Below, in pieces: positions 30,258 to 55,990 of a DNA stretch of 64,000 bases. The position numbers and the translations under genes are program-made. Source of the stretch: Barnesiella sp. An55 (GTDB lineage: Bacteria; Bacteroidota; Bacteroidia; Bacteroidales; Barnesiellaceae); the NCBI RefSeq assembly GCF_002161555.1, contig NZ_NFHZ01000009.1:1-64000 (forward strand). The letters run 5' to 3'. The notes beneath the pieces are model-generated. The model saw only the letters and a program-made list of their open reading frames with translations. It made no database searches and was not told the DNA's origin. Positions within the stretch are counted from its first letter, which is position 1. Every line of letters starts with the position of its first letter.

Positions 30258-31466
30258 ATGAAAAGAGTCTCGTTTTATATCATAGCCATTACTCTTGTGT
30301 CGATACTCTTCCCGGTTGGCGCCTGGGCCGCCGACGGGGGTACGACCAAGAACGAATTCAACCCCATCAACACCGGCGTTACCTCGCTGAGCATCACGCC
30401 CGACTCGCGCGGTGCATCGCTGGGCGACCTGGGTGCCGCTACCGACCCCGACGTCAACTCGCAATTCTGGAACCCTGCCAAATATGCCTTTGCCTATAGC
30501 CAGGCCGGAGTATCGCTATCATACACCCCGTGGCTGCGCAAGTTGGTCAACGACATCTACCTGGCCTACCTGGCTGGTTACTGGAAACTGGGCAGCAGCG
30601 ACTTGCAGGCATTAAGCGCCTCGTTGCGTTACTTCTCACTGGGCGAAATCGTCCTCACCGACAACCAGGGTAATGCCCAAAACAGCATCACCCCCTACGA
30701 GATGGCCTTCGACGTGGGCTACTCGCGCAAACTCTCCGACAAGTTCTCGATGGGTGTCGTATTCCGTTACATCTACTCCGACCTGGGATTCCACTACGAC
30801 GAGACAAGCGTATCCGATGCCTCGGGCGCCTCGGCCTTTGCCGCCGACGTAGCGGGTTACTACACCACCTATCCCATCATTGGCCGCAGCGAATGTCAGT
30901 GGTCGTTGGGTTTCAATATCTCCAACATCGGTACCAAGGTGTCGTATGACGGCGGTAACGAGAGTGCATTCCTCCCTACCAACCTGAAGATAGGGACCTC
31001 GTTCCTCTTCCCGTTGGCCGACTACAACACGCTGTCGCTCAACCTCGACTTCAACAAGCTGCTGGTACCCTCGACCCCTCAGGTAGCCAACTACGAGACC
31101 GATGCCGAGTATGAAGAAGCCAAAGAAAAATGGCAAAATACCTCGCCCATCTCGGGTATATTCCAGTCGTTCAGCGATGCCCCGGGCGGCTTCAAGGAGG
31201 AGTTGCGCGAAATCAACTTCTCGATTGGTGCCGAGTACTCCTACAACCAGCAGTTCTTCCTGCGGGCCGGATACTTCAACGAAAACAAATACAAGGGTAA
31301 CCGCAAATATTTCTCCTTCGGAGCCGGCTTTTCGCTCAACGTGCTCAAAATCGATGCCGCCTACATGGTGGCTACGGCACAAACGAGCCCGCTGGACCAG
31401 ACCCTGCGTTTCACCCTCTCATTCGATATGGACGGGCTTAAGGAACTCATAGGACATCGCCGATGA
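30258..31466 (+). CDS. porV: type IX secretion outer-membrane channel protein PorV
   Basis: A 402-residue outer-membrane beta-barrel of the PorV (LptO) family. The signal peptide ends at AWA. The conserved TSLSITPDSRGASLGDLGAATDPDVNSQFWNPAKYAFA block, typical for PorV/PorP-type FadL-like barrels, is at residues 40-80. PorV is the shuttle that carries type IX cargo from the translocon to the PorU sortase. It lies 52 nt after the PorU-like gene and overlaps ispF by 4 nt (ATGA). Confidence 0.95.
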   Translation: MKRVSFYIIAITLVSILFPVGAWAADGGTTKNEFNPINTGVTSLSITPDSRGASLGDLGAATDPDVNSQFWNPAKYAFAYSQAGVSLSYTPWLRKLVNDIYLAYLAGYWKLGSSDLQALSASLRYFSLGEIVLTDNQGNAQNSITPYEMAFDVGYSRKLSDKFSMGVVFRYIYSDLGFHYDETSVSDASGASAFAADVAGYYTTYPIIGRSECQWSLGFNISNIGTKVSYDGGNESAFLPTNLKIGTSFLFPLADYNTLSLNLDFNKLLVPSTPQVANYETDAEYEEAKEKWQNTSPISGIFQSFSDAPGGFKEELREINFSIGAEYSYNQQFFLRAGYFNENKYKGNRKYFSFGAGFSLNVLKIDAAYMVATAQTSPLDQTLRFTLSFDMDGLKELIGHRR

Positions 31467-31939
31467 AAACCCGGGTAGGATTTGGATTTGACGTGCACCG
31501 GCTGGTCGAAGGCCGGGAGCTGTGGCTGGGCGGCATACGCATCGAACATTCGCTGGGCCTGCTGGGCCACTCCGATGCCGACGTGCTCATTCACGCCTTG
31601 TGCGATGCCCTGCTGGGTGCGGCCAACATGCGTGATATCGGGTTTCACTTTCCCGATACGGCCGGCGAATACAAAGGCATCGACAGCAAAATTCTTCTGC
31701 AAAAGACAGTCGAACTGATTCGGGAGAAGGGTTACTCCATAGGCAATGCCGATATTACGGTCTGTGCAGAACGTCCCAAACTCAACCCTCACATCCCGGC
31801 CATGCAACAGACCCTGGCGGCCTGCATGGGTATCGACCCCGACGACATCTCGATCAAAGCCACCACTACCGAGCGGCTGGGCTTTACCGGTAGAGAAGAG
31901 GGTATCTCGGCCTATGCTGTAGTCCTCCTCGAAAAATAA
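31463..31939 (+). CDS. ispF: 2-C-methyl-D-erythritol 2,4-cyclodiphosphate synthase
   Basis: IspF (158 aa) of the MEP isoprenoid pathway, forming the cyclodiphosphate with release of CMP. It is a cytoplasmic homotrimer. The zinc ligands are in FGFDVHRL (D-x-H) and GLLGHSDADVLIHALCDALLGA; the C-terminal IKATTTERLGFTGREEG block is complete. It overlaps the porV stop codon (ATGA), so it is translated from the type IX secretion transcript. Confidence 0.97.
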   Translation: MKTRVGFGFDVHRLVEGRELWLGGIRIEHSLGLLGHSDADVLIHALCDALLGAANMRDIGFHFPDTAGEYKGIDSKILLQKTVELIREKGYSIGNADITVCAERPKLNPHIPAMQQTLAACMGIDPDDISIKATTTERLGFTGREEGISAYAVVLLEK

Positions 31940-32124
31940 GCGAAGGGAAAGCCTTTTGTTCGGCCTCCCCTTCGCACTCCTCTGCGAACAAGCAAACCAA
32001 ACAATATGACAGGGATACGAACTATGACCCAATAAGTAGTTCATATACCTTATTCGTTTATGGCTTTTCGCAGAAAAAATAATCGAGAATCCCCTCTTGC
32101 AGTCCCACCTGAATATAGCTCAAC

Positions 32125-32320
32125 GAGCTAAAAAAAATAAAGAAGCGTGAGCTCGATGGTTTATCCTATTCGAGGTCCAGCAAAAACCTTAGGTGGACAA
32201 ACAACCAGCCCACGCTTGTTTATAACAAGCGCAGGCGTTTAGCTGTTGATTACCTCACCTAAAAAGAATTTTGCTGATTCCGAATAGAGGTAATATTCTA
32301 AACGCTTATATTTCCAATAT
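32125..32320 (-). ncRNA. structured small RNA candidate, 6S-like rod
   Basis: The minus strand folds into one long rod. Paired arms from base to tip are ACGCTT 32302-32307 with AAGCGT 32143-32148; CGAATAG 32281-32287 with CTATTCG 32166-32172; TTTTGCTG 32269-32276 with CAGCAAAA 32178-32185; CACCTAA 32256-32262 with TTAGGTG 32189-32195; a GCTGTTG/CAAC-AGC arm; and an apical 8-bp hairpin 32213-32231. A strong promoter lies just upstream (32326-32358), and the closing stem is followed on this strand by a U-rich tract ending in eight T. No reading frame is plausible. Size and shape suit 6S RNA, but the large central bubble is not obvious, so the identity is open. Confidence 0.72.
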
Positions 32321-32325
32321 TTTTT

Positions 32326-32358
32326 CAAAGATAATCCTTTTTTGCCGAGATAGCCAAA
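32326..32358 (-). promoter_or_regulatory. promoter of the small RNA
   Basis: Minus-strand TTTG (32358-32355), 21-nt spacer, TATCTTTG (32333-32326). The predicted start site is near 32320, a few bases before the first paired arm of the RNA. Confidence 0.8.
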
Positions 32359-32432
32359 AGCTCCCCCACTTTTAACATTTTGGCGTTATATGTTTTTTAG
32401 AATATATTGCTCCCCGCCTCATAAAAGTTAGT

Positions 32433-32444: not shown

Positions 32445-33563
32445 ATGAAACGTATCGAATCCAACAAACGAGTATTGATAGGCATGAGCGGTGGTATCGA
32501 CAGCTCGGCTGCCTGCATGATTTTACAGGAACAGGGCTACGAAGTCGTGGGGCTTACCATGCGCATGTGGGACCTCCCCCGGCACTTTCCCCGCGAAGGT
32601 CAAACCATCCCCCAGTTTGCACTGGAGGCTCGCGAGCTGGCCGAAAAGATAGGCATCGAGCACCACATTCTCGATGTGCGCGAGGAGTTCAAGGGGTCGA
32701 TTATCAAAGGCTTTATCGACGAATATCTCAAAGGCAACACCCCCAACCCGTGTGTCATGTGCAACCGCCAGTTCAAGTGGCACTACCTCTTGCAGGAGGC
32801 CGACCGCCTGGGCTGCTCATGGGTGGCTACCGGCCACTATGCCCGCATTATCGACCGCGACGGCTACCGGGTGCTGGGTCGGGGAGCCGACAAGAAGAAA
32901 GACCAGTCGTACTTCTTGTGGCGACTGGGTCAGGAGGAGCTCTCGCGCACCATCTTCCCGCTGGGCGAGATTACCAAGGAGGAGATAAAGAAATATGTCG
33001 AAGGGAAAGGCTTCCACGAAAAGGTCGAGAAGAAAGAGAGCATGGAGGTGTGCTTCATCCCAGGCGACTATCGCGACTTCCTGCGGGAGCAGCTCCCCCA
33101 GCTCGACCAACAGGTGGGTGGAGGCTACTTCATCGACGCCACCGGCCGCAAGTTGGGCCAGCACAAGGGATTCCCCTTCTACACCATCGGCCAGCGCAAA
33201 GGGCTCGAGATTGCCTTGGGCAAACCCATGTTTGTAACCCGCATAAACCCGATCAAGAACACCATACGCTTGGGCGAGCGTGACGAACTGCTCACCCTCC
33301 GGATGGTCATTACCGACACCCTCGAGGCCATACCCGGTATTTTGGAGACAGCCGGCCCCGTCGATGTGCAGATACGCTACCGCAGTGCCGCTATACCGGC
33401 CACGCTCCAAAAAGGCGACACCCCCGGCGAGTGGATAGTCTGCTTCGAAAGCGACGCCTCGGCCGTAACCCCGGGACAGTCGGCCGTCATCTATCGCGAC
33501 AACACCGTCATCGGCGGCGGCATCATCGCCGACCAGCGGCTTCTGAAAAAATACAAAGCATGA
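32445..33563 (+). CDS. mnmA: tRNA 2-thiouridylase MnmA
   Basis: tRNA-specific 2-thiouridylase (372 aa) that thiolates U34 of Lys, Glu and Gln tRNAs using ATP and persulfide sulfur. The PP-loop is GMSGGIDSSAA near the N-terminus. The two catalytic cysteines are in NPCVMCNRQFKW and MEVCFIPGDYRDFL. GQRKGLEIALG and the C-terminal beta-barrel domain are complete. Its stop codon overlaps the start of the subtilase gene (ATGA), starting a run of tightly packed genes to waaA. The nearest promoter implies a leaderless start. Confidence 0.93.
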   Translation: MKRIESNKRVLIGMSGGIDSSAACMILQEQGYEVVGLTMRMWDLPRHFPREGQTIPQFALEARELAEKIGIEHHILDVREEFKGSIIKGFIDEYLKGNTPNPCVMCNRQFKWHYLLQEADRLGCSWVATGHYARIIDRDGYRVLGRGADKKKDQSYFLWRLGQEELSRTIFPLGEITKEEIKKYVEGKGFHEKVEKKESMEVCFIPGDYRDFLREQLPQLDQQVGGGYFIDATGRKLGQHKGFPFYTIGQRKGLEIALGKPMFVTRINPIKNTIRLGERDELLTLRMVITDTLEAIPGILETAGPVDVQIRYRSAAIPATLQKGDTPGEWIVCFESDASAVTPGQSAVIYRDNTVIGGGIIADQRLLKKYKA

Positions 33564-54092: not shown

Positions 54093-54116
54093 AAAATGTC
54101 ATTTTATTATTGTATC

Positions 54117-54170
54117 TCAAGTAGGGATCATCAGCACATAAAGGCGGTTAAAGGCTAATCCCATAGCCGG
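54117..54170 (-). promoter_or_regulatory. fluoride riboswitch (crcB motif)
   Basis: On the minus strand stem GGCTA/TAGCC (54168-54164 with 54157-54153) encloses the loop TGGGAT; it is followed by TTTAACCGCC and then CTGATGATCCCTAC (54134-54121). The loop GGGAT pairs with ATCCC, the long-range pairing that defines the crcB motif, and both GATG and CTAC conserved elements are present. It lies between the promoter and crcB. Confidence 0.88.
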
Positions 54171-54172
54171 GA

Positions 54173-54246
54173 CAAAGATAGCGAAAGGTGAGAGGAGAAG
54201 CAAACCGAAATGAAATTTCGAGTTTGATTATCCCGAACCGACTCCT
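54173..54246 (-). repeat. promoter-bearing dispersed repeat, copy 6 (toward crcB)
   Basis: Minus-strand TTTG (54204-54201), exactly 20 nt, TATCTTTG (54180-54173), hairpin CGAAAT...ATTTCG in place of GAAAAC/GTTTTC, and the distal block ATTATCCCGAACCGACTCCT. The start site falls at the 5' edge of the riboswitch. Confidence 0.8.
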
Positions 54247-55917: not shown

Positions 55918-55990
55918 TGATCCGCCTGGGGCTCGAACCCAGGACCCCAACATTAAAAGTGTTGTGCTCTACCAGCTGAGCTAGCGAATC
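55918..55990 (-). tRNA. tRNA-Lys (anticodon TTT)
   Basis: The minus strand folds as a complete cloverleaf: acceptor GATTCGC/GCGGATC, D arm GCTC...GAGC, anticodon stem CAACA/TGTTG with loop CTTTTAA (anticodon TTT), and T arm CCTGG-GTTCGAG-CCCAGG. CCA is not encoded. It is a single tRNA with its own terminator; a substrate of the MnmA encoded at 32445. Confidence 0.97.

Follow-up and report, generated by a model that had tools for sequence, protein, structure and literature searches.

The window, by which we mean the whole 64,000-nt stretch of Barnesiella sp. An55 DNA that was analysed, holds a minus-strand RNA in a gap bounded by ispF (31463-31939, plus strand) and mnmA (32445-33563, plus strand). 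The original prediction placed a near-consensus promoter, six successive paired arms and a closing U-rich tract here, all on one strand. Each of these components was recovered on the minus strand: the promoter is also kept in congeneric genomes, and the fold has at least six arms. The interval 32125-32325 folds with a minimum free energy of -63.1 kcal/mol, compared with -41.1 +/- 4.2 in 200 dinucleotide shuffles (z -5.2, 0/200). The proposed length of about 195 nt is plausible, while the proposed 3' end is less certain: further hairpins stand 3' of the U-tract. The features discussed below are as follows.

32326-32359, minus strand: putative sigma-ABfr-type promoter, recognised from sequence and congeners; -33 element TTTTG at 32359-32355, -7 element TATCTTTG at 32333-32326
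32141-32309, minus strand: RNA core in the rod state (P1, bubble, P2, P3, P4, apical hairpin), matched by covariance models R1 and R2 (see below)
32302-32307, minus strand: 5' strand of P1, AAGCGT; rod partner ACGCTT at 32148-32143
32280-32288, minus strand: 5' strand of P2; partner at 32173-32165
32269-32277, minus strand: 5' strand of P3, TCAGCAAAA; partner at 32186-32178; region of the C1 hairpin loop in the two-hairpin state
32206-32237, minus strand: apical hairpin region; its 3' strand doubles as B5, the 5' arm of hairpin B
32287-32305, minus strand: 5' arm of hairpin A in a forced fold of the window copy, GCGTTTAG at 32305-32298 and ATTACCTC at 32294-32287
32235-32256, minus strand: 3' arm of hairpin A, GAGGTAAT at 32256-32249 and CTAAACGC at 32242-32235
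32195-32217, minus strand: 5' arm of hairpin B, AAGCGTGGGCT-GG-TTGTTTGTCC
32143-32166, minus strand: 3' arm of hairpin B, GGATAAACC...AGCTCACGCTT; together with the U-tract, shaped like an intrinsic terminator
32130-32144, minus strand: U-tract TTCTTTATTTTTTTT
31982-32073, minus strand: second long hairpin, downstream of the U-tract and genus-specific; its loop segment ACTACTTATTGGGTCATAGT (32041-32022) is nearly invariant

The RNA is a rod of about 170 nt, with a model core of 169 nt, and was found in 7 of the 9 genomes of the genus. In the six other congeneric genomes the interval is 86-94% identical. Their alignment revealed a conserved core, promoter boxes and U-tract between diverging flanks, and the TAnnTTTG motif is present in 7/7 aligned congeners. 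The RNA is adjoined by mnmA in all of them and by ispF in all but one, where the corresponding stretch gave no ispF match.

Downstream of the U-tract we observed a bidirectional terminator-like hairpin in addition to the second long one. The stem flanking the invariant loop of the latter covaries within the genus, and its G.U strand signal is split. Across 295 Bacteroidales genomes, its loop motif ACTACTTATTGGGTCATAG was detected in this genus only. This hairpin may be part of the same transcript or of the 3' end of ispF.

A plain DNA search over Bacteroidales yielded, outside the genus, short chance matches alone, and covariance models were therefore used. The first, R1, was built from the genus copies and one from Bacteroides finegoldii, a record with 70% identity over 69% of the query whose match ends about 50 nt before a gene for a WG-repeat protein. 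The second, R2, was built from 75 copies. Of 295 Bacteroidales genomes, at least 32 had R1 matches, frequently several each. With R2 we detected at least 8 copies in the genome of the window, the window copy included, and copies in at least 63 of the 395 Bacteroidota genomes sampled; the own-genome and phylum counts are lower bounds, as the large scans scored no more than 7-9 candidates in each genome. A pattern derived from R1 matches recognised stretches in named genomes, at least 119 in all; among the matches listed, nearly every one comes from Bacteroidota, where the genera include Bacteroides, Parabacteroides, Pedobacter, Flavobacterium and Maribacter; a few pattern matches (L091, L130, L197, L203) proved false on inspection. 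R1 also scores the flavobacterial and Pedobacter copies, with a best E of about 1e-11, though it was built without them.

Two records with doubtful labels were encountered in the course of these searches. MT836897.1 (L270), labelled 'Bacteriophage sp.', carries this RNA as well as ispF and mnmA. The identity of these two genes (91% and 84%, respectively) marks the record as bacterial chromosome, and a phage origin was rejected. Similarly, NZ_OY725915.1 (L010), 'Plasmid 13' of Bacteroides finegoldii, has nadC and rlmH and looks chromosomal.

The copies occupy a characteristic position. Among 85 testable copies from named genomes, 71 have an ORF (ATG, at least 100 aa) that starts no more than 260 nt downstream in the same orientation, compared with 10/85 in a mirror control. 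In a set of 43 copies found without requiring a U-run, the motif TAnnTTTG lies 5-75 nt upstream in 34, where 2.5 were expected; the sigma-ABfr promoter consensus is TAnnTTTG / TTTG (PMC7366714). In the same set a U-run of at least four closes the RNA in 38 copies and is missing from 5. Five of the seven paralogues in the window's own genome (on contigs C8, C12 (twice), C13 and C47) have a same-strand ORF start within about 110 nt. The next listed ORF after the C10 copy begins at 326 nt, and the C18 copy, near a contig end, has a degraded 3' end. Promoter, U-run and same-strand ORF, taken together, point to a dispersed family of 5' leaders.

Proteins encoded downstream are often exported-like, as called by a home-made hydrophobicity rule: 55/91, compared with 111/492 among neighbours (OR 5.2, p 3e-12). 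Apart from this, searches for a shared protein function or anti-phage defence (PADLOC, Pfam) gave only scattered matches to many families. Some copies precede a Wza-like (Poly_export/SLBB) polysaccharide export gene (L101, L196, L088 and L106, from Bacteroides fragilis, B. timonensis and B. cutis), and two from Parabacteroides distasonis (L117, L132) precede dynamin-family GTPase genes. A mobile gene cassette was rejected as an explanation of the dispersal, since the stretch of DNA that is homologous between copies often ends with the RNA and not past the gene.

Neither at gathering nor at permissive thresholds did any Rfam family match the RNA in the window and at about 45 loci of relatives. 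In the literature searched we found no description of the family; unnamed fragments of it may stand in supplementary tables of predicted RNAs. On the evidence of sequence, the window RNA is thus a member of a dispersed, multicopy Bacteroidota 5'-leader family absent from Rfam.

Detailed analysis of the copies revealed two structures. The rod consists of P1, P2, P3, P4 and the apical hairpin. In the other structure, hairpin A joins the 5' arm to the strand before the apical hairpin, and hairpin B joins the 3' strand of the apical hairpin to the 3' end, with the U-run directly after it; small hairpins, C1 and C2, sit in the loops of A and B. In the window copy, A would form by pairing of GCGTTTAG with CTAAACGC and of ATTACCTC with GAGGTAAT, and B by pairing of AAGCGTGGGCT with AGCTCACGCTT.

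It had been proposed that arm pairing be checked in aligned relatives. The check was favourable: covariation is evident against the B. finegoldii homologue (in hairpin B, GCGTGGAC/GTCCACGC there and GCGTGGGC/GCTCACGC in the window) and extends through the family. Over 53 copies, 87.4% of cells pair in the rod and 33 of its 62 pairs change on both sides; P1 is paired in 99% of cells, and P2 has two-sided changes in 9/9 pairs. In the two-hairpin fold 85.2% of cells pair, with two-sided changes in 26/53 pairs. The covariation score of the rod was 0.375, compared with 0.158 in shuffled and about 0.1 in slid controls, and that of the two-hairpin fold 0.223, compared with 0.154 and at most 0.10; both structures were derived from one aligned sequence, which favours them in the slid control. 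For both, pair counts exceeded all 500 shuffles on nearly every measure.

An alignment-free test compared, in 68 non-redundant copies, the duplex energy of a segment with its own partner and with the partners of other copies. Own partners were preferred for the two arms of hairpin A (-14.3 vs -9.8 kcal, z -12.8) and for P2-P4 (-18.8 vs -9.9 kcal, z -24). They were also preferred for the arms of hairpin B (-23.1 vs -21.3 kcal, z -8.3), a figure that is not as independent as the other two because the copies in the pairing, strand and covariation tests were mostly picked by the pattern, which fixes part of B. The control combinations A5:B5 and A3:B3 gave no own-versus-other signal in these copies. 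Thus, the RNA has two mutually exclusive predicted folds, rod and A+B, and both are supported by covariation. The helices of the two share some strands, and part of the complementarity could be a by-product of this.

Folding favours the modelled strand over its complement in 68/68 copies, and G.U pairs favour the sense strand in 61/68 copies for hairpin A and 66/68 for hairpin B. This shows that selection acts on the modelled RNA strand, which is the functional one. It also bears on the idea that the copies are DNA-level elements, either palindromic recombination sites or miniature transposons, that lie near genes by chance. The abrupt end of inter-copy homology, often at the ends of the RNA, and the inverted form of those ends (AAAAGCG/CGCTTTT) would agree with such elements. 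The strand-specific use of G.U pairs, the polar position relative to genes, the promoter that precedes the copies and the persistence of orthologous loci in the genus all argue against them, and we regard this explanation as very improbable.

The original prediction favoured 6S RNA (SsrS), that is, a single-copy rod whose central bubble mimics an open promoter and which binds RNA polymerase. Like RF00013 and RF01685, the window RNA has the form of a rod whose internal loop lies close to the closing stem (14/17 nt, above a short stem, with a possible mini-hairpin on the 3' side); its length also fits, 6S being about 160-200 nt long, and 6S-Flavo occurs in Bacteroidota. Additionally, a 6S RNA has been reported in Bacteroides (PMC7366714). 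Against this identity stand the multicopy occurrence upstream of genes and the lack of a match to either model. Across the window region RF00013 matched nothing up to E=5, and its best match in the own genome, off the window locus (C49:121004-121182), reached 12.5 bits against a cut-off of 46.4. RF01685 was not found in the own genome, nor in the controls of that search, while the model matches 49/395 genomes. Moreover, in 28 flavobacterial genomes a single 6S-Flavo locus coexists with R2 copies at other coordinates (in G402, C1:3084971 and C1:733468 and 1073451, respectively), and the bubble strands have covarying partners within hairpins A and B. We find a 6S identity hardly credible. As regards the reported Bacteroides 6S RNA, it is the multicopy leader position, not a sequence comparison, that argues against identity.

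Among the Bacteroidales RNA models, a class proposed for comparison, Bacteroidales-1 (RF01693) resembles the window RNA in its occurrence in Bacteroidales and its length of about 180 nt. It likewise has no match in the window; the match in the own genome (150.6 bits, G000:C34:145011-145191, L001) lies on another contig. The second suggestion, a different Bacteroidales RNA, was correct in that the RNA is not 6S and too narrow in its taxonomy, as the family also occurs in Flavobacteriia and other Bacteroidota.

By eye, most paralogues in the own genome (L241-L245) have a short hairpin, which we call P0, just 3' of the promoter and 20-50 nt before the RNA; ACATATT often comes next, and the window copy has no P0. 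Many copies have, again by eye, a further small hairpin with a G-rich loop, e.g. UUGGGGACU, between the U-run and the start codon; examples at 10-60 nt after the U-run are L088, L090, L178 and L186.

The usual order of modules in the family is promoter, P0, an RNA of about 160-220 nt, the U-run and, a few tens of nucleotides on, a start codon. Hairpin B with the U-run, placed between promoter and gene, has the anatomy of an attenuator, with B as a putative intrinsic terminator. The rod would act as the antiterminator: P1 would withdraw the 3' arm of B and the U-run, and the apical hairpin would withdraw the 5' arm. The choice would be made during transcription, so that formation of A+B would stop the polymerase and release an RNA of about 200 nt, while formation of the rod would let it read on into the gene. 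Some factor or signal would tune the balance. The fold that contains B lies 6.4 kcal/mol above the rod in the window and, on average, 14 above it in the family; with the rod favoured at equilibrium, B would need a co-transcriptional (kinetic) route or a bound factor. On balance, we lean, with modest confidence, towards the family being a bistable transcription attenuator and the window copy a small RNA derived from such a leader and probably standing alone. The want of a common function among downstream genes counts against attenuation, and so do the greater stability of the rod, the five copies (of 43) whose U-run is shorter than four, and the strands shared by the two folds.

The leader could instead act after transcription, on mRNA stability, on translation or through a protein that binds the rod, and the U-run would then be no functional terminator. 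The strong thermodynamic preference for the rod, the P0 hairpin beside the start site in paralogues and the G-rich hairpin that, judged by eye, often separates the U-run from the ATG are consistent with this. It is less easily reconciled with the canonical terminator shape of hairpin B plus U-run, with the covariation of the B pairing or with the retention of the U-run in most copies, and we consider it rather unlikely.

Attenuation would ally the family with riboswitches, T-box leaders and pT181-type leaders, the last of which are controlled by antisense RNA. They share a promoter, a structured leader, an alternative terminator-like hairpin with a U-run, and a gene. The family differs in matching no known aptamer and in preceding unrelated genes, many for exported proteins. 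Unlike those of the known leaders, its alternatives are a complete rod and a tandem pair of hairpins whose loops are complementary. Cis-regulatory leaders with alternative folds are a known kind of RNA; what appears to be new, in the sources read, is the present family with its breadth and its rod/two-hairpin design.

FopS and GibS are paralogous Bacteroides sRNAs, and FopS is about 65-70 nt long with an R1 seed (PMC11697453). They too form a multicopy Bacteroides RNA family with sigma-ABfr promoters (PMC11697453). The RNAs studied here, by contrast, are 160-220 nt long, mostly leaders and phylum-wide; membership in the FopS family was set aside by length alone.

The window copy itself keeps the promoter, both folds and the U-tract, and no same-strand gene lies downstream of it, the next gene being the convergent ispF. 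A 227-aa ORF on the minus strand runs antisense to ispF and has an ATG that relatives do not conserve. Lacking both P0 and a downstream gene, the copy probably arose from a leader and stands alone as an sRNA, and its product would be mainly the short RNA. As this is the only evident product of the locus, a role in trans and a leader retained without its gene are both possible. It is conceivable, in our opinion doubtful, that the window copy works in trans, as an sRNA with targets of its own, and that its leader-like relatives are mere ancestors. Its own promoter and U-tract, the missing gene and P0 and the conservation of the core amid diverging flanks agree with this; the conserved two-fold design and the further downstream hairpin, on the other hand, suggest that a cis logic partly persists. 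In a wider reading, the family might tentatively be seen as a general-purpose switch used across the phylum, which would flip between rod and tandem hairpins ahead of unrelated genes, many of them for exported proteins, and whose stand-alone members would act in trans on other copies or on a factor that senses the fold.

If this interpretation is true, a major gut phylum with few known classes of regulatory RNA has a large undescribed RNA family. Among the genes that follow its copies, in Bacteroides, Parabacteroides and other genera, are ones that encode exported proteins, polysaccharide export functions or regulators. The two covarying folds predict a switch in a form that can be tested directly, and the window copy, having no gene, could serve to examine a role of these leaders in trans.

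As a general rule, the RNA showed no own-versus-other pairing signal with its upstream or downstream flanks; flank pairing was seen in a few flavobacterial copies (L121, L180, L179, L191). In six copies from Flavobacteriia (L121, L180, L179, L187, L191, L202) the C1 loop sequence of the leader recurs in the opening codons of the gene that follows, e.g. AAAATCGCCAAC (Lys-Ile-Ala-Asn), which leaves the C2 loop with two possible pairing partners. In L133 the loop is of the ATCTCC type and the gene begins with Lys-Ile-Ser-Asn, not Lys-Ile-Ala-Asn. Elsewhere in the window, we found a fluoride riboswitch of the known class RF01734 (46.4 bits, 54115-54177, minus strand) and a tRNA (55918-55990, minus strand).
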